Position numbers and translations under genes: made by a program
Notes under the pieces: generated by a model
What the model was told of the DNA's origin: nothing
Seen by the model: the letters and a program-made list of their open reading frames with translations, nothing else
The model's database searches: none
Shown: positions 738 through 13,095 of the stretch, piece by piece
Layout of the letters: each line of letters starts with the position of its first letter
Numbering within the stretch: the stretch's first letter is position 1
Source: Candidatus Sumerlaeota bacterium
Lineage (GTDB): Bacteria; Sumerlaeota; Sumerlaeia; JABWBI01
Length of the DNA: 32,238 nucleotides
Reading direction: 5' to 3'
NCBI GenBank assembly: GCA_016928695.1
Contig: JAFGKF010000299.1
Coordinates: 1 to 32,238, forward strand

Positions 738-1680
738 CCCGGCGCGGCAGCGTCAGATTCTCCGCCGCCTCGCCAAGCGCAATCCCGGCCCCTACCCCAC
801 GCTCTCGCTCCAGCGCGTCTGGACCGAGATCATGGGCGCCTGCCTCAGCCTCGAGCAGCCGCTGCGCGTCGGATACCTCGGGCCGGAGTCCTCCTTCAGC
901 CACCTCGCCGCGATCCACGAGTTCGGGCACGCGATGGATCTCCGGCCCTATGTCTCCATCAGCGACATCTTCCACGCCGTCGAGAAGGAGCACCTCGACT
1001 GCGGCGTCGTCCCCATCGAGAACTCCACCGAGGGGATCGTCCACTTCACGATGGACAGCTTCCTCGACTCGCCGCTCAAGATCTGCTCCGAGCTCCTGCT
1101 GCGCATCCGCCTGAGCCTGCTCGCCAAGGGGACGCTCGGAAAAATCAAGAGGGTCTACAGCCATCCCCAGCCCTTCCGGCAGTGCCACCGCTGGCTGCGC
1201 GAGAACCTCCCCCAGGCCAAGCTCGTCGAGGTCTCCTCGACGGCGAAGGGCTCCGAGCTCGCCGCGCGCACCTCCGACGCCGCCTCGATCGGGTCGGTCG
1301 TCGCCGCGGAGAAGTACGGCCTCAAGATCATCGCCGAGGGGATCGAGGACGACGCGGACAACACCACCCGCTTCCTCGTCATCAGCCCGATGCACCCCGG
1401 CCCCAGCGGCGACGACAAGACGTCGATCATGTTCACCCTGCGCGACAAGCCGGGGGCGCTCGTCTCCGTGCTCGAGCCGCTCGACCGAAAGGGGATCAAC
1501 ATGACGAACATCGACGTCCGCCCCTCACGCCGCCGCGCGTTCGACTACGTCTTCTTCATCGACCTGGAGGGTCACATCGAGGAGCGCCGCGTGGCCGACG
1601 CCATCGAGCAGATGCACGACCACTGCGTGATGGTCAAGGTCCTGGGCTCCTACCCCCGACAGGCGGTGAGAACAGGCTGA
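562..1680 (+). CDS. pheA: Bifunctional chorismate mutase / prephenate dehydratase (P-protein)
   Basis: Converts chorismate to prephenate and then to phenylpyruvate, the committed branch to phenylalanine, in the cytoplasm. The 372-residue protein has an AroQ-type chorismate mutase helix bundle at about 18-100 (LRREIDAIDTEVIELLNRRA), a prephenate dehydratase domain at about 103-280 (GYLGPESSFSHLAA, GVVPIENSTEGIV), the catalytic TRF motif at T269-F271, and a C-terminal ACT domain from about 290 (DKPGALVSVLEPL, then NIDVRPS in place of the classical ESRPS), which normally binds phenylalanine for feedback inhibition. Length and domain order are as expected. The ATG at 562 leaves a short basic leader before the mutase domain. 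It is followed 36 bases later by hisC and then tyrA, an aromatic amino acid block. Confidence 0.95.
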   Translation: MAKRKSPPRKGAARRPNIASLRREIDAIDTEVIELLNRRAVLAQRVGEAKSVRGQAMFDPARQRQILRRLAKRNPGPYPTLSLQRVWTEIMGACLSLEQPLRVGYLGPESSFSHLAAIHEFGHAMDLRPYVSISDIFHAVEKEHLDCGVVPIENSTEGIVHFTMDSFLDSPLKICSELLLRIRLSLLAKGTLGKIKRVYSHPQPFRQCHRWLRENLPQAKLVEVSSTAKGSELAARTSDAASIGSVVAAEKYGLKIIAEGIEDDADNTTRFLVISPMHPGPSGDDKTSIMFTLRDKPGALVSVLEPLDRKGINMTNIDVRPSRRRAFDYVFFIDLEGHIEERRVADAIEQMHDHCVMVKVLGSYPRQAVRTG

Positions 1681-1716
1681 GCGCCGCCGCCGCCCATCTC
1701 CACTGATCGAGGCACC

Positions 1717-2823
1717 ATGATTCCCCTGAACCCCCATCTCGCCTCCCTTCAGCCCTACCCTCCCGGCAAGCCGATCGAGGAGGTCAAGCGCGAGCTCGGG
1801 CTCGACCGCGTGATCAAGCTGGCGAGCAACGAAAACCCCCTGGGGCCGAGCCCGAGGGCCATCGAGGCGCTGCGCGCCACCGCCTCCGAGCTCCACCTCT
1901 ACCCCGAGGGCCATGCCCACGAGCTCCGCCATGCGCTGAGCGAGGCTCTGGGTGTCGCCCCCGAGCGCCTGATCTTCGGCAACGGCAGCGACGAGATCCT
2001 GATGCTCGTGGCGCTGACTTTCCTCCGCCCAGGCACCAACCTGATCATGAGCCGGCACGGCTTCATCCGGCCACTGCAGCACGCGACGCTGGTGGGGGCG
2101 GAGACAAAGGTGATCGACGTCATCCCCCGCAACTGCGAGCAGGACGTCGAGGCGATGGCCTTCGCCATCGACGGCTCGACGCGCGCCGTCTACCTCGCGA
2201 ATCCGAACAACCCCACGGGCGACCTGGTCCACCACGAGCGCGTCCGCGGCCTGCTCGCCCATGTGCCGAGCGACTGCCTCTTCCTCTGCGACGCCGCGTA
2301 CCACGAGTACTGCGCGGACCGGGAGGAGTACCAGGACCCCCTCGAGTGGATCGACGAGTTCCCGAACATGCTTGTTCTCCGCACGTTCTCGAAGGCCTAT
2401 GGCCTCGCGGGGCTCCGCTGCGGCTACGCGGTGGGCCACCCCGATGTGATCCGTGAGATCGAGCGCGTGCGCCCCCCCTTCAACGTGACGCGCTCCGCGC
2501 AGGTCGGTGCGCTCGCCGCCCTCGGGGATCAGGGGCACATCGACCGCGGCATCGAGGTCAATCGGGCGGGCATGGTGCAGCTCGAGCGGGGACTCGCCCC
2601 GCTCGACGTCACCGTGATCCCCTCGGCGGGCAACTTCCTGCTCGTCGACGTCCACCGCCCCTGCGGACCCGTCTTCGAGGCGCTCCTGCGCCGCGGTGTG
2701 ATCGTGCGCCCGATGGCGGGCTACAGCCTGCCGTCCTGCGTGCGTGTGAGCATCGGCACGGAGGAGCAGAACGCGATTTTCCTCGGAGCCCTCGAGGAGA
2801 CCCTGAGCGAGGCGAAGCCATGA
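1717..2823 (+). CDS. hisC: HisC-type aminotransferase (histidinol-phosphate / aromatic aminotransferase)
   Basis: A fold-type I PLP aminotransferase of 368 residues. The HisC-family signatures are visible: KLASNENPLGPSP near the N-terminus, YLANPNNPTG in the middle, and TFSKAYGLAGLRCGYAV with the PLP-binding lysine at K226. The family converts imidazole-acetol phosphate to histidinol phosphate, but many members also transaminate phenylpyruvate and hydroxyphenylpyruvate or prephenate. Lying between pheA and tyrA, and overlapping tyrA by ATGA, it most likely supplies the aminotransferase step for phenylalanine and tyrosine, possibly serving histidine as well. No other his genes are in view, so the substrate is inferred from context. 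Confidence 0.88.
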   Translation: MIPLNPHLASLQPYPPGKPIEEVKRELGLDRVIKLASNENPLGPSPRAIEALRATASELHLYPEGHAHELRHALSEALGVAPERLIFGNGSDEILMLVALTFLRPGTNLIMSRHGFIRPLQHATLVGAETKVIDVIPRNCEQDVEAMAFAIDGSTRAVYLANPNNPTGDLVHHERVRGLLAHVPSDCLFLCDAAYHEYCADREEYQDPLEWIDEFPNMLVLRTFSKAYGLAGLRCGYAVGHPDVIREIERVRPPFNVTRSAQVGALAALGDQGHIDRGIEVNRAGMVQLERGLAPLDVTVIPSAGNFLLVDVHRPCGPVFEALLRRGVIVRPMAGYSLPSCVRVSIGTEEQNAIFLGALEETLSEAKP

Positions 2824-3701
2824 TGGATCGCGCCCCCTATCACGAGAACGTGACGATCATCGGCGTGGGGCTGCTCGGCGCCTCGCTGGGCATGGCGATC
2901 CGCCGCCACAACTTGGCGCGGCGGATCACCGGCTGCGGCCGGAACCGGCAGCGGCTGCTCGACGCGAGGAGCCAGGGGGCGATCGACGCCGTGTCGACCG
3001 ATCTCTCCGAGGCCGTCTCCAGCTCCGATCTCATCATCCTCTGCACCCCCGTGCAGCACATCATCGAGAACCTGCCGACGGTCATGCGCGCGGCCGAGCC
3101 CGGCGCGCTCGTGACCGATGTCGGTTCGACCAAGGGCGCCATCCTCCGCGTCGCGGCGAGCATCGAGGAGCGCGGCGTGACCTTCATCGGATCTCATCCG
3201 ATGGCGGGCAGCGATCGCACGGGCCATGAGCACGGCACACCCGATCTCTACGAGGGCGCGACGACGTTCATCACGGTCGAGGAGACGACGCCGAAAGACA
3301 AGGTGGCCGAGGTCTCCCAGCTCTGGCGCTCCGTCGGCGCCCGGGCCGTGCTCATCCACCCCGAGCGCCACGACCGGCTGGTCGCGGCGATCAGCCACCT
3401 CCCCCACCTGCTGGCCGTCGCCACCGTGCGGATGGTCAGCGAGGTGCACGACGACGAGAATTTCCTGCGCTGGGTGATCGGCGGGGGATTCCGCGACACC
3501 ACACGCATCGCGAAGGGGTCCTCTGAGATGTGGCGTGACATCTGCGCCACCAATCCCCAGGCGATCGTCGAGGCGATCGACGCGCTCCTGGAGAAGATGC
3601 AGGAGATCCGACACGAGATCGCATCGACCGACATGCGGGAGCTCACAGCCATGCTGGAAGAGGCCCGCCGCTACCGCGAGGGATTGGAGGACGAGGCGTG
3701 A
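2820..3701 (+). CDS. tyrA: Prephenate dehydrogenase
   Basis: Oxidative decarboxylation of prephenate to 4-hydroxyphenylpyruvate with NAD(P), the tyrosine branch. The 293-residue protein opens with a Rossmann nucleotide-binding loop (IGVGLLGASLG, residues 14-24), carries VTDVGSTKG and the family hallmark GSHPMAGSDRTG around residue 120-135, and ends with the helical dimerisation domain (FRDTTRIAKGS and following). There is no fused chorismate mutase and no ACT domain. The ATG overlaps the hisC stop in an ATGA, implying translational coupling. A second ATG directly follows the first, so the exact start may be one codon later. Confidence 0.94.
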   Translation: MMDRAPYHENVTIIGVGLLGASLGMAIRRHNLARRITGCGRNRQRLLDARSQGAIDAVSTDLSEAVSSSDLIILCTPVQHIIENLPTVMRAAEPGALVTDVGSTKGAILRVAASIEERGVTFIGSHPMAGSDRTGHEHGTPDLYEGATTFITVEETTPKDKVAEVSQLWRSVGARAVLIHPERHDRLVAAISHLPHLLAVATVRMVSEVHDDENFLRWVIGGGFRDTTRIAKGSSEMWRDICATNPQAIVEAIDALLEKMQEIRHEIASTDMRELTAMLEEARRYREGLEDEA

Positions 3702-5377
3702 ATCACCCCGTGCGTGCCCTGGCTCTGGCGCTGCTCGCCGCTCTGGCCGCACCGCTCGCGGCGCAGTCCTTTCCCATCACCGCCATCGATCCCTCGGGCG
3801 AGGGTGAGTTCCCCGGCTCGCGGGGTCCCGACCAGATGATCGTCTACACCCCCGCCTATGACCACCCGACGACGGGGACCAATCCCTGGGGCTCGGAGGC
3901 CGTCGTCTCCGGCGGCGTGGTTGTCAGCGTGGGGACAAACGACTCGGCGATCCCCGAGGACGGTTTTGTCGTCTCGGGGCACGGCGTGGCGCGCGACTGG
4001 ATCAACACGAATCTGGCGCCCGGCTATCCCGTGATCCACGACGGGACCGAGGTCCGCATCGACGATTCCCCCGCGGGGCAGTTCGCTCTGCTGATGTGGC
4101 GTCTCGGCGATCTCCGCTCCAGGCTCGATGCCCTCGCGGCGAGCGGCGCTCCGGCGGAGACCCTCGGCGGACTGCGGGCGGCCATCGACGATCTCGAGAA
4201 TCTCATCTATCTCTCACCGGGGGTTGCCATGGATCAGCGCGCCGAGGAGGCCCGTGAGATCGAGTCGGCGATCTGGGATCTGGAGCTGGGACAGATCCCC
4301 TCACCCGAGGGCGAGGTCCGAGGCGTCTGGCACCGCCTGAGCGAGACGACGCCCGGGGCGATCACTCAGCTGGTGGAGGAGCTGGAAGCGGCGCATGTGA
4401 ACGCCTTCTTCCCCGAGACGATCTACGGCTCGCAGGCGATCTTCGCCGATGAGACCGGGCTCTACCCCCTTTTCCAGCACTTCGAGGGGCACGACGCGCT
4501 CGCCCAGATCATCGAGGAGTGCCACGCGCGCGGCATCGAGGTCCACGCCTGGGTCCACTGCTTCTTCATCGGAGTGCAGGGGAATCAGGACGAGCCTCCG
4601 CTTCTCGCCGAGAGTCACCCGCAGTGGCTCCAGAGCGACCGCGAGGGACGCCAGGTGTCGATCGACGAGGCGGATTACATGTTCATCAATCCCGCCCAGC
4701 CTGAGGTGCGGCGGGCGCTGATCGACGCCTACGTCTCACTCGTTGAGAGATACGATCTCGATGGCCTTCAGCTCGACTACATCCGTTATCCCAACCATCA
4801 GTCATGGCAGCGGGGATGGGACTATTCCGAGTTCACCCGGACGCAGGTCACCCGAGATCTCGATTTTGATCCCATGGAAATCGCTCCCGACACGCACCCC
4901 GAGCAGTGGGCCCGGTGGCTCGCATGGCGCGAGGGGGTCATCACCTCGTTCGTCGAGGAGGCGAGCGGGGCGATCCGCGCCGCGCGGCCCGAGATCTTCC
5001 TGAGCGCCGACATCTTCCCGGGCATTGAGTACGCCGTGGAGGTCAAGGGGCAGAACTGGGCCGACTGGGGCCAGCGCGGCCTCGTCGACGCGATCATCCC
5101 GATGGCCTACACCACCGACCCGGCCGACGTGGCCGATGCCGTCAGCGAGATGCATCGGCTGCTTCCGGAGGCAGGGCCGTTCGCCATCGCACTCGGGCCC
5201 TTCCTGGGCCTCTCGCCCCGGCAGCTGATCGACCAGATCCGCGCCGCGCGCGGAGCCAGCTCGACCGGGCAGATCCTCTTCTGCTGGGATCGTCTGACCC
5301 CCGAGGCGCGCCGAGCGCTCGCCCTTGGTCCATGGCGCAGCGGCGGCGCCCCCGACTGGATGGAGGAGTCGCTCTGA
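3698..5377 (+). CDS. Secreted GHL10/DUF187-type glycoside hydrolase-like protein (DigH-like)
   Basis: A 559-residue exported protein. It starts at GTG, overlapping the tyrA stop as GTGA. Residues 1-22 are a signal peptide ending in LAAQS. Residues about 25-130 form an N-terminal domain with a glycine-rich GFVVSGHG segment, reminiscent of phosphodiester-glycosidase-like modules. From about 205 (EVRGVWHRLSE) onward is a TIM-barrel GHL10 domain with the characteristic YDLDGLQLDYIRYP, in which D355 and D360 are candidate active-site acids, and IIPMAYTTDP near the end. Relatives such as E. coli DigH act on denuded glycan strands of peptidoglycan, so a cell-wall role is plausible. Its position behind tyrA is probably co-transcription, not pathway linkage. 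No lipobox is seen, unlike DigH. Confidence 0.82.
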   Translation: MNHPVRALALALLAALAAPLAAQSFPITAIDPSGEGEFPGSRGPDQMIVYTPAYDHPTTGTNPWGSEAVVSGGVVVSVGTNDSAIPEDGFVVSGHGVARDWINTNLAPGYPVIHDGTEVRIDDSPAGQFALLMWRLGDLRSRLDALAASGAPAETLGGLRAAIDDLENLIYLSPGVAMDQRAEEAREIESAIWDLELGQIPSPEGEVRGVWHRLSETTPGAITQLVEELEAAHVNAFFPETIYGSQAIFADETGLYPLFQHFEGHDALAQIIEECHARGIEVHAWVHCFFIGVQGNQDEPPLLAESHPQWLQSDREGRQVSIDEADYMFINPAQPEVRRALIDAYVSLVERYDLDGLQLDYIRYPNHQSWQRGWDYSEFTRTQVTRDLDFDPMEIAPDTHPEQWARWLAWREGVITSFVEEASGAIRAARPEIFLSADIFPGIEYAVEVKGQNWADWGQRGLVDAIIPMAYTTDPADVADAVSEMHRLLPEAGPFAIALGPFLGLSPRQLIDQIRAARGASSTGQILFCWDRLTPEARRALALGPWRSGGAPDWMEESL

Positions 5378-5592
5378 TGCTGAGGAAGATCAAGGGACTC
5401 TTCGGCGGCGGCTCCAGGAGGGAGAGAATTCCCTGCCCCACCTGCGAGGGCACTGGGCAAGCCACCTGCCTCCGCTGCGGCGGCTCGGGCCTCCTCTCGA
5501 TCCCCAATCAGACTCTCGACTGCCCCGAGTGCGGGAAGACGGGAAAGCTTCCCTGCCCCGCGTGCCGCGGGACAGGTCAAGTCGTCAAGTGA
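5377..5592 (+). CDS. Small DnaJ-type zinc-finger protein without J domain
   Basis: A 71-residue protein whose ATG shares one base with the preceding stop (TGATG), so it is probably translated by re-initiation. After a short basic leader (MLRKIKGLFGGGSRRER) it consists of four CxxCxGxG-type repeats: CPTCEGTG, CLRCGGSG, CPECGKTG and CPACRGTG. This is the two-zinc-site pattern of the cysteine-rich region of DnaJ, but no J domain or substrate-binding domains are present. Stand-alone proteins of this kind are known for disulfide/holdase or assembly roles, and the substrate here is unknown. Its last 16 bases overlap the end of the convergent FliB-like gene. Confidence 0.85.
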   Translation: MLRKIKGLFGGGSRRERIPCPTCEGTGQATCLRCGGSGLLSIPNQTLDCPECGKTGKLPCPACRGTGQVVK

Positions 5593-6734
5593 TCTGAGAC
5601 ATCGAGCTCTCTCCGATCGCACAGGGCCGTGAACAGCTCCCGCGACATGCGGTGAACGAGCAGCAGGTCGGAGTCGCGGATCGCCTCCCGCAGCAGATCG
5701 CGATCGAGTGGGCGCCCCGCCTCCTCGCACCGCAGTGCGGCGTGGACGCGGAGGCTCGCATGCGCGGCGATCACGGCGAAGAGCGCGCTTCGCATCCCCT
5801 GCCCCTGATAGGCGATCCAGTTCGCGAAGGCCTTCGACGCGAGATAGCGCCGGATCGGCCCCTGAAACTCCAACCAGTGTGGCTGAACCGATCGGCCGAG
5901 GTGATCGGCGAAGTGATCCAGGCATGGAGGGGGACCAATCTGAGCGGAGGGGGGGATGCAGTGGAGGAGCTCACGGAAAATCGCCTCTGTGCTCTCGATC
6001 CCCAATCCATGGGAGCCAGACTCTGAGGGGCGCCCCTCATCACAGCAGCGCCGCAGGTGCTCACTGAATTCGCCATCACTCTCGCGCCACGAGCGGATCA
6101 TCTCCCCCTGTGCTGCGAGCAGCCCCAGCGCCTGCTCGGGGGTGAGGTCGCCGCGGGCGAGCGTCGCGACCATGTGGCGTTCCCAGTGAGCGTGATCCTC
6201 CCAGCGCATCAGGGCGTCGGGGCAAATCATCGGTGGAAGTGCCTCGCGCGCATCGAGCCCCTCCCACGTCTCTCTCTCGGAGAGGATGGGGGGATTGACC
6301 ACGATCGCCAGGGGCCTGTCCTCCCGGAACAGCATCTCCGCGGCGGTGGGGCAGAGATGCGAGAGCGTGACCGACACACCCAGGGGGTGCAGGACGCAGA
6401 TCCGTGGAAAGTGCTGACACTCCGAGGGGAGAGCGCTGTGTCCCGCCTGGCGGTGAATCGCGCAGAGACCGCTGTCCTCGAGGAAGACGCACCGCCCGCC
6501 CCGTGTGCCGAGCAGCGCCGAGCGGCTCTCGGGGAGCTCGTCACATCTCTCGAAGAGCACCTCGGGATCGGTCTCCCCGCCCGGCACCGCGATCCTTCCC
6601 TCTGCCATGAGCCGGGTGATGTGCTGGCGCACGGACCGCTCCACCGGGATGCGCCACCCCGATGCGCAGCAGAGACTGGTCCCTGCGCAGCGGTAGTCCA
6701 CGTGGATCGAGAGGGCGTGGAGGGTCGGGCCCAT
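5577..6734 (-). CDS. FliB-like / YkgJ-superfamily cysteine-cluster protein (putative lysine N-methylase)
   Basis: A 385-residue soluble protein with the cysteine layout of the FliB (flagellin lysine-N-methylase) and YkgJ families. It has YRCAGTSLCCASGWRI (C16, C22, C23), CVFLEDSGLCAIH (C82, C91), LPSECQHFPR (C106), C113 and LSHLCPTAAEML (C128). These cysteines probably bind a metal or Fe-S cluster. FliB proteins methylate flagellin lysines in Salmonella, and a flagellar operon lies a few kilobases away, but no flagellin gene is in the window. The C-terminal two-thirds is helical and poorly conserved. It starts 12 bases after the deoxyhypusine-synthase-like gene and is the last gene of a four-gene minus-strand run. 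Methylase activity is inferred from family resemblance only. Confidence 0.72.
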   Translation of the reverse strand: MGPTLHALSIHVDYRCAGTSLCCASGWRIPVERSVRQHITRLMAEGRIAVPGGETDPEVLFERCDELPESRSALLGTRGGRCVFLEDSGLCAIHRQAGHSALPSECQHFPRICVLHPLGVSVTLSHLCPTAAEMLFREDRPLAIVVNPPILSERETWEGLDAREALPPMICPDALMRWEDHAHWERHMVATLARGDLTPEQALGLLAAQGEMIRSWRESDGEFSEHLRRCCDEGRPSESGSHGLGIESTEAIFRELLHCIPPSAQIGPPPCLDHFADHLGRSVQPHWLEFQGPIRRYLASKAFANWIAYQGQGMRSALFAVIAAHASLRVHAALRCEEAGRPLDRDLLREAIRDSDLLLVHRMSRELFTALCDRRELDVSDHLTT

Positions 6735-6746
6735 GCCCGGGGGGTC

Positions 6747-7754
6747 TCAGCGCGACCGCAGGCGCTCGATCACAGCGGCGACGATCAGGGGCAGCGCGAT
6801 GGTCACGTCGCACTTGACCGTGACAGCCGTGTTGCGCGGATCGTATTTGCCCCAGCTGATCGACTCACTGATCGTGCACCCGCTCATCCCGCCGTAGACG
6901 GGGGTGTCGGTTGTGATGTGGATGCCATAGCGATAGCCGGGGAACTTGCGGACAAAGGTGCCGATCGGGACATGGAGATACTCGAGCAGCGGAGTCACCT
7001 GCTGCGCCCAGTTGCGGGGCACGCCGCCGCCGCAGATGACGATGCCGCTGACCTCGACCTCTCTCATCATCTCGGCGAAGGCCATGTTGTCGCTGAGTCC
7101 GTCCCAGATGATCTGCTCCTCCTCACCGCGCTGGCTGTTGAAGCTGTTGATCAGGAGGCCCAGCTCGGAGTCATTCAGCGCGGGGATGAAGATGGGGACG
7201 CCTCTCTCCCGCGCGGTCGAGAGCAGGCAGGGCTCTGTCACAGCCTCGCCTGCGAAGGCGCAGATCTCCGGCGAGGTCCGCCGCCCGGCGATCTCCCCCA
7301 GGCGCCTGTGCATCGCGAGAGCCGTCCGCTGAAAGGCGTCGTCGGTGATGTACGTGTCGTAGACGCGGTTGATGAAGGCGTCGCGGAGATCCGTGTCGGA
7401 TCGGAGGTTGCACCGCTGCCAGTGGTGATGGCCCATCCCCTCGACGAGGTCGTGCGAGACGTTCGCCCCCGTCGAGATGATCACGTCGACCATCCCCTCG
7501 CTGACCATCTCCATCAGGACGCGCTTGAGGCCCCCCGGGATCAGTGCACCCGCCAGCGTCAGGACCTTGAAGACGCCGGGCTCCGCGCACATCTCGGTGA
7601 GAATCTCGGCTGCGCGGCTCAGTGTGCGCGCCTGAAACGACATGCCGCCAAGGGCGGCCAGCAGCGCGTCGCAGCCCGTGTGCTCCGAGGGCACCATCCC
7701 TGTCACGGGGCCGGTGAGCTCGGCTCTCTCTCTCAGACTCTGTGTTTCACTCAT
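6747..7754 (-). CDS. Deoxyhypusine-synthase-like protein (NAD/polyamine-dependent transferase family)
   Basis: A 335-residue protein clearly of the deoxyhypusine synthase family. It has GGMSFQARTLSRAAEI, LAGALIPGGLK, VIISTGANVSHDLVEGMGHH (NAD-binding region), FIPALNDSELG and the C-terminal ESISWGKYDP with the active-site lysine at K303. Eukaryotic and archaeal enzymes move an aminobutyl group from spermidine to a lysine of eIF5A. Bacteria lack eIF5A, and bacterial homologues are thought to act in polyamine metabolism, for example homospermidine-type synthesis, or on unknown acceptors. The catalytic lysine is kept, so I expect an active enzyme. It lies 66 bases downstream of the M48 protease gene and 12 bases before the FliB-like gene. 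No clear Shine-Dalgarno sequence precedes its ATG. Confidence 0.88.
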   Translation of the reverse strand: MSETQSLRERAELTGPVTGMVPSEHTGCDALLAALGGMSFQARTLSRAAEILTEMCAEPGVFKVLTLAGALIPGGLKRVLMEMVSEGMVDVIISTGANVSHDLVEGMGHHHWQRCNLRSDTDLRDAFINRVYDTYITDDAFQRTALAMHRRLGEIAGRRTSPEICAFAGEAVTEPCLLSTARERGVPIFIPALNDSELGLLINSFNSQRGEEEQIIWDGLSDNMAFAEMMREVEVSGIVICGGGVPRNWAQQVTPLLEYLHVPIGTFVRKFPGYRYGIHITTDTPVYGGMSGCTISESISWGKYDPRNTAVTVKCDVTIALPLIVAAVIERLRSR

Positions 7755-7820: not shown

Positions 7821-8648
7821 TCACTGGCCGATCAGTGACTCCACACGCGCCTGGACAAAGTGAAACTGGGGGGTGTCGCTGATGAGATCGCTGCGGCTGG
7901 CCGCCGACTCGATCATCGCGTCGATCTCCGCGATGCGCTGAGTCGTGGCGGGGTGGGTCGACAGGAGACCCTCGATCCGCCCGGGCTCGCGCCCCTCGAT
8001 CTCATGGAGGGTCTCAAAGAAGTCGCGGAGCCCCCGGGGATTCCACCCCGCGCGGAGCATCGCCTCGACGGCGACGCGGTCGGCCTCGCTCTCCTGGGTG
8101 CGGCTGAATCTGAGCATTCCCAGACCCGATGCGATGCGCGCGGCGGCGACCGCGATGAAGGGGGACTCCTCATTGAAGACGATCCCCTCCGCCGTCTGGA
8201 TCAGCACCTGGTTCGCCAGCGCCCGGCGGTGATGGCCACACGTCACGTGGCTGACCTCATGGGCGATGACGCCGACCAGCTCACTCTCGGTCTCTGCCGC
8301 GGTGATCAGGCCCGTCTGGACATAGCAGAATCCGCCCGGAAGGGCGAAGGCGTTGACCTGATCGTTGACGACCACCTTGAAGGTGAAGGGAAACGATCGC
8401 TGCAGTGGAGAGGCCTGGATGATCCGCCCCGCGACCTCGTTGATGTAGGCGTCGACCTCGGGATCACTCAGCAGCACAAAGTCCTCACCGCCCTCGAGCT
8501 CTCCGACGAGCGTGAGACCCATCTCACGCTCCTGCGAATCGGAGATCAGCACCGGTCCGAGGCAGGTGCCCGCCAAACAGAGTCCGGCGAGCAGAGCCAG
8601 CAGAGCAGCTCGGTGAGGGGGGAGTCGAGAGAGCGATCTCATGTTCAC
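7821..8648 (-). CDS. M48-family metalloprotease, exported
   Basis: A 275-residue zinc protease of the BepA/YfgC/LoiP-like type that acts in the cell envelope. The N-terminal hydrophobic stretch at about 13-32 is a signal peptide; the cysteines in it do not form a convincing lipobox. The zinc site is H130-E-V-S-H134 with the third ligand E186 in an ExxxD motif (TQESEADRVA). NAFALPGGFCYVQTGL is typical of this subgroup. There is no C-terminal TPR domain, unlike BepA. The GTG at 8648 overlaps the stop of the upstream gene as GTGA, while an ATG two codons later (8642) is an equally good start. Relatives degrade misassembled outer membrane proteins, and that role is inferred. Confidence 0.9.
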   Translation of the reverse strand: MNMRSLSRLPPHRAALLALLAGLCLAGTCLGPVLISDSQEREMGLTLVGELEGGEDFVLLSDPEVDAYINEVAGRIIQASPLQRSFPFTFKVVVNDQVNAFALPGGFCYVQTGLITAAETESELVGVIAHEVSHVTCGHHRRALANQVLIQTAEGIVFNEESPFIAVAAARIASGLGMLRFSRTQESEADRVAVEAMLRAGWNPRGLRDFFETLHEIEGREPGRIEGLLSTHPATTQRIAEIDAMIESAASRSDLISDTPQFHFVQARVESLIGQ

Positions 8649-10510
8649 AGTCCCGGTGTGGGATTGGAGCCCGGTGCGTCGCCTCTCTGGGAAGAGGCGC
8701 GCTCGGCCGTGCGCAGATGGCGCAGCACCTCCGGCGAGTCGGGCCGGATGCTCTGGGCGAGCTGCAGGAAGTGCTTGGCCCGCGCCCAGTTCTCCGCCGA
8801 GATGGCCGCAAGCCCCTGGCGATAGTAGTCGATGAACAGGGCGTCACTGGTGTCCGTCGGACTCTCCGACGTCTCGCCCTCATCCGGCGCGGCGGACCCG
8901 CTCCGGTCATCCACACTCATGCTCCCCGGGGGAGGGGTGATCTCGCTCAGGACCTGTTTGATCTCATCCGGCTCGAGGATCAGTGTGACCGAGTCCGCTT
9001 TGGACGGTCCCCTGGGCCGCGAGGGGATGGCGATGGTCTCCTCGAGGTCCGCGGGATCGAACTTCGGTGGCTTTTCCTCCTCGGGACCGGGTTTGTCAGG
9101 GGACGAGTCCCTGCCGATCCCACCCTCCGTGATCCCGGCGGGTGAACGCGGCTCCGAGGGTGCGTCTCCGAGCAGGTCATCCAGCCTGAGAGGGGCGCCG
9201 GTGATCTCCGCCATCTCCTGCGGGGATGCGGGCTCCTCTGCCGGTCCCGTCAGAAGATCGTCCGTCGTCATCGGCGCTGAGGGCTCCCCCTCGGAGTGCG
9301 GGGATGTCATGGGGACGGGGGTGGCCTCCAGGTCGAGACTCGGTCCCACAGAGGCCTCCTCCTCGTCGGGGGGCACCTCGGAGGGGACCTCGAACAGGAA
9401 GTCATCGGCATCGACCGTCTCAGTCACAGTCCTCGGCGTCTCATGGGGAGCCTCGAGGTCTTCATCGTCGAGAGAGAGTGAGAGCGAGGTGGGCTCGGGC
9501 TCCGGCGGTTTCACCGGTGGCGGAGCAGTGCTTTTGGGCTCAGCGGTGCTGAAAGCCGATTCGATCGAGGGGCCTGCGACGGCGTCGAGCGACAGCGGCA
9601 CATCCCTCTCCTCAACCCGGGGCGCCGGTGCCTGGGGAGGTGCAGGGGGATTGTGGATTCTGTCGCGTATGGCCTCGACCGCATCGTCGATCGACGGCCA
9701 TGGGGCGGCCAGTGTGGCCACCGACACCCCTCTGAGGGGCACCGTGGCAGGCTGGGGCGAGGGCTCCATGGCGGCGCTGAGCGCCTCGTCAAGTGCAGAG
9801 CTCACCTCCCCCTCACCGAAGGGGGATTCGGGGATCTCCTCCTCCGGCGGTGCCCAGCGGTTGACACCGTCGTCCTCCACCGCCACCGCCGCTCTCCCAC
9901 GGCGCTGGCGACGCATCAGCAGCGGCAGAATCACCAGCACCGCGACCACGGCGATCAGAGCCCCCAGCGCCATGGAGCGATTGACCTCGCCGAGGAGAGG
10001 CAGCTCGATGGTCGAACCCGAGGAGCGTCTCGGACGGGGAGAGGGCTCCGGCTCCGCAGGGGGAGTCGGCTGTGCGGGCTCTGCCACCGGGGGCGCGGGC
10101 CCGGGAGGTGAGAGAGTGTCCGGTGAGGGTGGGGGAGGCGGAGGTGGGCCGAGGGGGGATTCGGCGACGGTCTCCGGGGATGTCACTGCCCCCGCCCTCT
10201 CGCTGGGCTGAAGAACAGGGGCCGGGATGGCGCCACTCTCGATCAGATCGAGCTGCTGCAGGGCACGGGTGCGGTAATGCTGAATCCGCCCATTGCGGGG
10301 ATCAAGGGCCTCCAGCTCGTCGCACAGATCCAGCACGCGCTGGTAGTCACCGATGCTGTACGCTCGCCGAATGTCGTCCTGGATCTGGTATCGCGTCTGG
10401 ACAATGTTGCCCCGCTCGACATCCAGGGGGTTGACCTGACTCGGCACAGCCACGGTCAGCGACAGTGTCAGTGCCAGGGCGAAAAGACTGTGGCGCAGCG
10501 TCAGACTCAT
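8645..10510 (-). CDS. FimV-like single-pass membrane protein with TPR ends and disordered acidic tail
   Basis: A 621-residue protein I do not recognise as a named family. I place the start at the ATG at 10510 because GGAG lies eight bases before it and a signal peptide follows directly (MSLTLRHSLFALALTLSL). Visible order: signal peptide 1-24; TPR-like helices at about 45-92 (AYSIGDYQRVLDLCDELEALDP); Pro-rich linker 95-165 including seven consecutive prolines; one transmembrane helix 181-199 followed by RRQRRGR, so the remainder should be cytoplasmic; a long Pro/Glu/Ser-rich acidic disordered tail with short repeated DDLL segments; and a C-terminal TPR-like unit at about 560-605 (AAISAENWARAKHFLQLAQSIRPDS). 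This order resembles FimV/polar hub proteins but lacks LysM. It may scaffold a polar or envelope complex. Confidence 0.75.
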   Translation of the reverse strand: MSLTLRHSLFALALTLSLTVAVPSQVNPLDVERGNIVQTRYQIQDDIRRAYSIGDYQRVLDLCDELEALDPRNGRIQHYRTRALQQLDLIESGAIPAPVLQPSERAGAVTSPETVAESPLGPPPPPPPSPDTLSPPGPAPPVAEPAQPTPPAEPEPSPRPRRSSGSTIELPLLGEVNRSMALGALIAVVAVLVILPLLMRRQRRGRAAVAVEDDGVNRWAPPEEEIPESPFGEGEVSSALDEALSAAMEPSPQPATVPLRGVSVATLAAPWPSIDDAVEAIRDRIHNPPAPPQAPAPRVEERDVPLSLDAVAGPSIESAFSTAEPKSTAPPPVKPPEPEPTSLSLSLDDEDLEAPHETPRTVTETVDADDFLFEVPSEVPPDEEEASVGPSLDLEATPVPMTSPHSEGEPSAPMTTDDLLTGPAEEPASPQEMAEITGAPLRLDDLLGDAPSEPRSPAGITEGGIGRDSSPDKPGPEEEKPPKFDPADLEETIAIPSRPRGPSKADSVTLILEPDEIKQVLSEITPPPGSMSVDDRSGSAAPDEGETSESPTDTSDALFIDYYRQGLAAISAENWARAKHFLQLAQSIRPDSPEVLRHLRTAERASSQRGDAPGSNPTPGL

Positions 10511-10655
10511 CAGTGTCACTCCACGGTGCTCAGCCTCGGGGCCTCCATCGGCGGGCCAGCGATTTTCCATGATAGAGGGAGGCCACATTCCCCTTCAACC
10601 CCCATTCCACTCATCGAGGAAGGCCAAGTGGGGAGCCACCCAAGGGAAGAACCCA

Positions 10656-11919: not shown

Positions 11920-13095
11920 TCAGCGCAGGTAATCCAGCAGGCTCAGCTGCATCACCCTCGATGTCGCCTCGAGGCTCGTCTGGTAGGCGGTCTCCGCCTC
12001 GGTGAAGTTCGTGATCGCCTCGGTCGCGTCGATGTCCTCGAGCGAGGAGATCAGCGTCTTCAGATTCACGCTCAGATCGCTCAGGCGGATCGTGGCCCGC
12101 TCGAGCTGGTTCTCGCGCGCCCCGATGGCCGCCTGGGCGCTCGAGATCTGCGCCAGGGCGTCGTCGAGGAGTGCGAGGGAGTCCACCAGAGTGGTCTCGT
12201 CCCCATCGCGCAGGGCCTCCACCACGTCGTTGAGAAGACCGAAGATGTCCACACCGCTCGAGAGTGTGGCGCCCTGGAAGACCACATCGCCCCGCAGATT
12301 GGTCTGCATGAACGAGTCCTGCTCGATCTCGAGCTGGGTCACCCCGTCGTCGCCGCTGTAGGTGCCCGTATCGGTGGTCGTGACGGAGATGACATCCCCC
12401 GGGTCAGGGCTGCCGCTCAGCGTCACCGAGATCCCGTCGAACACGATCCTCTGCCCGGGGACGTAGGTGTTGCCCGATGAGATGGTGAGCCCCTCATCCA
12501 CGTTGATGATGTCAAAGGTGCTCGGCCCCGTGAAGACGATCTCGTAGGCATCGCCCGTCAGGTCGATCACACTGCTCACGCTCGCATCGTCGACCACCGC
12601 CGTCCCGGTGTTGCCGGGGTCGGGCACAGCGGTGGCCTCGGCCGACAGGAACGCCGGGTCGTCGGTCTGGTGCCCGGAGAAGATGTGCTGGCTCCCGATG
12701 CGGGTGTTTGCGATGGAGATCAGCTGCTCGCGCAGAGTGATGATCTCGACCGCCGTGGCCTCACGCGTCAGGTCGTTCGCGGTCGCCGTGCTGCTCTGGC
12801 CCACGACCAGCTCGCGCACACGGGAGATCATGTCCACCGCCTGCTCCAGTGCCGCATCGTAGGCCTCCGTCAGGCTGGTGGCGATTCCGATGTTGCGCTG
12901 GAACTGCTCGGTCTGGCGCAGCTGGGTGCGAAGGCGGAGCACGCTGCCGGCCCCCAGCGGATCGTCGCTCAGGGTGTTGATCTGCCGCTGCGTCGACACC
13001 TGGGTCTGGGCATCGAGCAGCTGGCGGGCCTGGCGCTGCAGGACGCTGCGGGACGTGTCGAAGATGATGGACTGGGTGACACGCGTGATCGTCAT
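11920..13095 (-). CDS. flgL: Flagellar hook-filament junction protein FlgL (HAP3)
   Basis: FlgL joins the hook to the filament outside the cell after export by the flagellar type III system. The 391-residue product has the flagellin-like N-terminal D0/D1 helices (MTITRVTQSIIFDTSRSVL, INTLSDDPLGAGSVLRLRTQL) and the matching C-terminal helix (FTEAETAYQTSLEATSRVMQLSLLDYL). The middle contains a stretch also seen in the neighbouring FlgK (YEIVFTGPSTFDIINV, IVFDGISVTLSGSPDPGDVISV), a shared domain-type repeat in hook-associated proteins. AAGGAG precedes its ATG. A sigma28-type promoter lies immediately upstream, so flgL-csrA-fliW can be expressed as late genes. Confidence 0.93.
   Translation of the reverse strand: MTITRVTQSIIFDTSRSVLQRQARQLLDAQTQVSTQRQINTLSDDPLGAGSVLRLRTQLRQTEQFQRNIGIATSLTEAYDAALEQAVDMISRVRELVVGQSSTATANDLTREATAVEIITLREQLISIANTRIGSQHIFSGHQTDDPAFLSAEATAVPDPGNTGTAVVDDASVSSVIDLTGDAYEIVFTGPSTFDIINVDEGLTISSGNTYVPGQRIVFDGISVTLSGSPDPGDVISVTTTDTGTYSGDDGVTQLEIEQDSFMQTNLRGDVVFQGATLSSGVDIFGLLNDVVEALRDGDETTLVDSLALLDDALAQISSAQAAIGARENQLERATIRLSDLSVNLKTLISSLEDIDATEAITNFTEAETAYQTSLEATSRVMQLSLLDYLR

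Follow-up and report, generated by a model that had tools for sequence, protein, structure and literature searches.

A divergent deoxyhypusine-synthase homologue beside a FliB-like gene in a Sumerlaeota genome is probably a SpeY-type homospermidine synthase

What does a homologue of deoxyhypusine synthase (DHS) make in a bacterium, and does the FliB-like gene beside it take part? The question is raised by a window of 32,238 nucleotides, the whole stretch of DNA analysed here, from a Candidatus Sumerlaeota bacterium (assembly GCA_016928695.1, contig JAFGKF010000299.1). A sequence-only reading of this window had paired the two genes and named two options, polyamine synthesis or the modification of a lysine on a protein such as flagellin or EF-P. 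Both open reading frames were confirmed on the minus strand. The DHS homologue (335 aa) is encoded at 6747–7754 and is proposed here as a SpeY-type homospermidine synthase from its PF01916 match, conserved residues and fold; the FliB/YkgJ-like cysteine-cluster protein (385 aa) is encoded at 5577–6734 and is so named from a sub-threshold match to NF038110 and its cysteine pattern. The gap of 12 bases between the DHS stop codon and the ATG of the FliB-like gene (6735–6746, minus strand) is exactly as it had been read. Upstream of the DHS gene, the context on the minus strand consists of a gene for an M48 family metallopeptidase (7821–8648) and, overlapping it by 4 bases, one for a 647-aa protein that had no Pfam match (8645–10588). 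Further upstream on the same strand are flagellar genes, encoding a flagellin-domain protein (11920–13095, minus strand) that adjoins FlgK, and FlgM-like, rod-binding-domain, FlgA-type and FlgE/F/G-type proteins. On the other side, an 86-aa protein with DnaJ-type zinc-finger motifs and Pfam matches below the cut-off is encoded on the plus strand (5332–5592); its ORF converges on the FliB-like gene and overlaps the end of that gene by 16 bases.

The earlier assignment of the 335-aa protein to the DHS family, with the active lysine kept, proved sound. The protein matched the Pfam DS family (PF01916) over residues 31–327 with an E-value of 4e-74, and in the alignment its K303 takes the position of the human catalytic lysine. 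This residue was invariant among the homologues of two alignments (29/29 and 107/107), and D195, E297 and W301 were likewise present in all 107 homologues of the larger one. AlphaFold modelling from 32 sequences gave a pLDDT of 93.3, and a fold search with the resulting model had DHS chains as its top four solved matches (Z 35.0, 2.0–2.5 Å, 301–314 residues). The protein resembles human DHS in its fold (Z about 35) and in keeping the equivalents of human K329, E323, W327 and D238; it differs from human DHS in that L200 and M290 occupy the sites of human D243 and D316, and in its score of 207.4 bits against the DHS model TIGR00321, which has a cut-off of 304.25. It fell under the cut-off of each NCBIfam DHS, SpeY or CdmS model that it matched, with 169.8 against 450 bits for PRK00770 (homospermidine biosynthesis protein) and 198.1 against 500 bits for NF002699 (CdmS). 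Because the score lies below the PRK00770 cut-off, our claim is that the protein would work like SpeY, not that it belongs to that clade. It is the only DHS-family match in the window's genome.

The two replaced aspartates were considered as a substrate indicator and dropped. Leu, Ile, Met or Phe occupies the D243 site in 106 of the 107 aligned proteins, and the D316 site is without Asp in all 107 (Leu in 101, Met in 5, Cys in 1). According to the alignments, DHS chain 8put, which the window model matched with Z 33.6, also lacks both aspartates, and Pyrococcus chain 7cmc lacks D316. Since the replacements are near-universal in the aligned set and are present in chain 8put as well, they do not decide the substrate; they fit CdmS, nearly the whole aligned set and chain 8put alike.

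Phylogenetic placement was based on a midpoint-rooted FastTree tree of 107 sequences. The window's DHS grouped with L071 (57% identity), from a MAG labelled Zixiibacteriota, and with L072 (39%), labelled Dadabacteria, with support of 0.995 and 0.987. Among the matches listed, these two, L072 more distantly, are the only other members of the clade, and the nearest relative is 57% identical to the window's DHS while the others reach 42% or less. The next node, which adds 40 sequences including SpeA- and PvlArgDC-linked ones, had a support of only 0.123, and a wider node with 87 of the 107 sequences had a support of 1.0. No polyamine gene was found beside DHS in the clade of the window, L071 and L072: L072 has none in the 6 kb downstream of DHS, and L071 has only 92 bases downstream and, 1.5 kb upstream, a frame that we take to be hydrolase-like. 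G001 is the only other genome searched from this family, and its DHS is instead of the PRK00770 clade and over the cut-off (480 vs 450). SpeY and its clusters with polyamine genes have already been published; judged by its sequence, the window's DHS is a divergent new member.

The genes adjoining DHS relatives were counted by family, in all six frames, at 80 loci. These are the best 80 of the 562 matches confirmed in a scan of public contigs with a narrower alignment (A2), which biases the locus set towards A2's part of the DHS family. Our analysis of these best 80 of 562 revealed 27 loci with a pyruvoyl arginine decarboxylase (PvlArgDC), 8 with SpeA and 8 with a ureohydrolase. At least one of the three lay within 500 bases of DHS at 38 of the 80 loci and within 2 kb at 40, the two added loci having ureohydrolases about 600 bases away; none of the three was found in the DNA examined at the other 40. 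The PvlArgDC neighbours of this set are not independent, since 22 of the 27 come from Lokiarchaeota or Prometheoarchaeum. Among the best 80 of 562, the polyamine-linked loci carry the labels of archaea (Lokiarchaeota, Sigynarchaeota, Euryarchaeota, Thermoplasmata, Woesearchaeota) and of bacteria (Kiritimatiellae, Verrucomicrobia, Chlorobiota, an Acidobacteriaceae MAG, patescibacterial groups), and those with SpeA or a ureohydrolase are labelled Verrucomicrobia, Kiritimatiellae, Chlorobiota, Woesearchaeota, Moranbacteria, Portnoybacteria and Patescibacteria.

In addition, 118 genomes were searched, 39 of which, the window's own included, make up the window's class; the class DHS genes compared belong to other clades, with 26–38% identity. 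PvlArgDC, DHS and agmatinase genes stand in a row in class genome G003, and a SpeD-like gene accompanies DHS in G002, G017 and G022, with an agmatinase also in G002. The SpeD-like protein of G017 scored just over the cut-off of an AdoMet decarboxylase model (79.1 vs 75.65 bits) and so may serve spermidine synthesis there. According to PMC10407285, SpeY clusters with a SpeD-derived arginine decarboxylase and SpeB, or has AguA/AguB elsewhere in the genome; the window protein is like the SpeY described there in that arginine decarboxylase and SpeB are cluster partners of its relatives as well. Two SpeY-like copies in tandem were observed in L075, L090 and L094 (Lokiarchaeota), and L150 (6001–7895), from an archaeal MAG labelled Candidatus ainarchaeum, has a second DHS, canonical by eye, a few bases after its SpeY-like gene, which suggests that the two have separate jobs.

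The window's own genome encodes a route to putrescine, made up of PvlArgDC on contig C387 (TIGR00286, 121 bits against a cut-off of 107) and adjacent AguB and AguA genes on C381, which are best matches yet lie under the cut-offs of their models. Read from these families, the feeder route would lead from arginine through agmatine and N-carbamoylputrescine to putrescine. The genome is a draft, 92.8% complete, so each gene absence is provisional. In this draft neither the arginase/agmatinase family (PF00491) nor the AdoMet decarboxylase family (PF02675) had a match. The same 92.8%-complete draft gave no match to PF16653, which we take to be the HSS/CASDH C-terminal family and expected to detect HSS; no HSS-bearing control gave a signal. 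The sole PF02784 match of the genome is LysA. Four SpeE-family matches (C126, C188, C235, C293) scored 39–85 bits in frames of 464–1153 aa, and the seven SpeE-family proteins of relatives scored 194–221 bits in frames of 286–297 aa.

From the fold, the catalytic residues, the feeder genes and the lack of a match in the draft to several rival families of triamine enzymes we infer the substrates and product of the enzyme: the gene at 6747–7754 probably encodes a SpeY-type homospermidine synthase that joins two putrescines. The claim is held at this strength because the HSS search had no positive control. Oxidation by NAD, an imine on a lysine and transfer to an amine make up the established DHS mechanism. 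In the window's enzyme, NAD would oxidise the amine donor, and the aminobutyl group would be carried as an imine on Lys303 and handed to an amine of another small diamine; donor and acceptor would most likely both be putrescine, giving sym-homospermidine. The window protein is like SpeY in its DHS fold and catalytic Lys and in a genome with putrescine-supply genes, whose draft gave a match neither to AdoMet decarboxylase nor to the C-terminal family of HSS and CASDH; it is unlike SpeY in its score under the PRK00770 cut-off and in window neighbours that have no polyamine role. The polyamine option named at the outset gains support both from the relatives' neighbourhoods and from the genome's polyamine inventory, and this is how a DHS-family gene in a bacterium should be read, the two lines pointing here to homospermidine synthesis, not protein lysine modification. 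The DHS-like protein is most likely the triamine-making enzyme of the window's genome. If this is true, SpeY would gain a divergent clade, and the triamine of a genome in which no spermidine route is recognised would depend on a single DHS-like enzyme.

Our second choice, which we regard as unlikely, is that the enzyme couples agmatine, as does caldomycin synthase (CdmS) of Thermus thermophilus. The window protein shares with CdmS the catalytic Lys and hydrophobic residues at the human Asp243 and Asp316 sites, where its L200 and M290 stand for the Phe204 and Leu286 of CdmS reported in PMC10981699; an arginine decarboxylase is also present in its own genome and adjoins DHS in many relatives among the best 80 of 562. 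However, the two sites do not discriminate, with Leu, Ile, Met or Phe at the first in 106/107 aligned proteins and no Asp at the second in any, and the protein scores far below the NF002699 cut-off (198 vs 500). Moreover, no arginase/agmatinase-family ureohydrolase that could trim the product, as in caldomycin conversion, was found in the draft, and AguA/AguB, which make putrescine, are present. With no ureohydrolase match and with AguA/AguB encoded, the balance tips to putrescine.

Would the enzyme instead act on a protein? That it alters a lysine of some bacterial protein in the manner of hypusine, EF-P being the most plausible target, with or without the FliB-like neighbour, appears very improbable to us, although the family has its precedent in eukaryotes and archaea and the genome's own EF-P carries a Lys at the loop tip (HVKPGKGKAF). 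The search for an IF5A-type substrate covered PF08207, which gave one match in this genome, with an ordinary EF-P loop. EF-P loops were read by tblastn, with one EF-P match per genome where two existed, and the modified lysine of E. coli EF-P was taken to mark the site. An EF-P row was obtained for 20 of the 25 DHS-bearing class genomes, and the tip was Lys in 8, Asn in 10 and Gln in 2; in class genomes that lack DHS it was Lys in 9 of 11. A DHS of a different clade lies close to an EF-P-like gene in G010 and G016, but both of these DHS genes go with a Gln-tip EF-P. The neighbours of many DHS relatives (best 80 of 562) are polyamine genes, and the canonical-looking second DHS beside the SpeY-like gene of L150, with its suggestion of separate jobs, also argues against EF-P as the target. 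That the window's DHS clade moves a butylamine group to Lys35 of its own EF-P, and not to a free amine, is likewise highly doubtful. As a general target in the class EF-P was rejected, 12 of the 20 DHS-bearing genomes being without the tip Lys. The two EF-P-linked loci, L188 (G010:C11, about 1487–3495) and L028 (G016:C27), come from genomes of one genus; there an EF-P-like domain, with the loop HYKREQRRA and without the usual tip lysine, is found about 0.4 kb downstream of the DHS.

Having named homospermidine synthesis as the preferred reading, we consider the FliB-like neighbour. A DHS-like match was found in 57 of the 118 genomes and a FliB-like match in 32; in the class of 39 the respective counts are 25 and 28, with both in 23. 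Within the class, a FliB-like match occurs, unlinked, in 23 of the 25 DHS-bearing genomes and in 5 of the 14 others (p 0.0004 if genomes are independent, phylogeny ignored; 0.07 by family), and for comparison AguA occurs in 18 of the 25 and 3 of the 14 (p 0.003), with p 0.02 by family for AguA or SpeB. Such class co-occurrence is not what a purely accidental pairing predicts. Most class FliB-like matches cover the N-terminal region only, with longer ones in G001, G014 and G017 (residues 4–207 in the last). Beyond the class, where the sensitivity of the query drops with distance, a FliB-like match was found in 2 of 32 DHS-bearing and 2 of 47 other genomes.

In none of the other 22 class genomes that have both matches, mostly draft contigs, do the two genes adjoin; they share a contig about 21 kb apart in G028 and about 670 kb apart in G004, and are on different contigs in the others. 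At the nearest named DHS loci (best 80 of 562) no FliB-like gene was detected in the DNA examined, and 63 of these loci have at least 1 kb of DNA on both sides. When the same four FliB-like queries were applied at a looser E-value to the 27 loci L035–L061, collected because of such a match, they revealed a frame in 26 of them. With adjacency at 0/80 loci (best 80 of 562) and in 0/22 class genomes, mostly drafts with DHS genes of other clades, the pair was rejected as a conserved unit. Co-occurrence, proposed earlier as the check on the pair, gave a divided answer: the two families do co-occur unlinked within the class, but among the genomes and loci searched the adjacent pair was found only in the window's genome. 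The FliB-like gene is probably a functionally unrelated neighbour of the DHS-like gene.

A two-gene lysine-modification unit acting on flagellin would fit the 12-base spacing on one strand, the flagellar genes that lie upstream in the same orientation and the co-occurrence of the families within the class. Against it stand the DHS loci (best 80 of 562) where no FliB-like gene was detected, the separation of the genes in all 22 class genomes and the FliB score and cysteine motif described below, and we find this reading hardly credible. The genome has four Flagellin_N matches in total, and the three strong ones (140–173 bits) are on other contigs (C232, C226, C218), as is a second FliB-like copy. 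The window's own match is weaker, at 57 bits, and its protein is presumably FlgL by its position next to FlgK. Flagellin was rejected on these grounds as the nearby target; of the candidacy that had been drawn from the flagellar operon, distance on the contig is the sole link. The earlier suggestion that the pair modifies a lysine of flagellin or EF-P found no direct support: among all genomes and loci searched the pair was seen only in the window's genome, the stronger flagellin matches lie on other contigs, and the tip Lys is missing in 12 of the 20 DHS-bearing class genomes with an EF-P row. Deoxyhypusine synthase is absent from the flagellin and FliB papers among the literature matches listed.

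The FliB-like protein itself had no Pfam match, and with the FliB model NF038110 it scored 55.9 bits over residues 22–149, under the cut-off of 85. Its cysteine cluster is CX5CC (C16-X5-C22C23) plus C82, C91, C106 and C128, and these cysteines are kept in 29–30 of 30 aligned relatives. In PMC8598068, the cluster of FliB is given as CX4CX3CC, a pattern that the window protein does not have. Its likeness to FliB/YkgJ proteins lies in the N-terminal cysteine-cluster region and the conserved downstream Cys, and it is unlike FliB in having CX5CC, a sub-threshold score and no adjoining filament flagellin. Among the literature matches listed, no mechanism was found for YkgJ, and an AlphaFold model of the FliB-like protein alone (pLDDT 35.6) was too poor for a fold search. 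The second FliB-like protein of the genome is encoded on the minus strand of L062 (G000:C370, 3724–4938) and scored 71.1 against the 85 bits of NF038110; the genes near it, which are not flagellar, we take by eye to be pseudopilin-like and comM-like.
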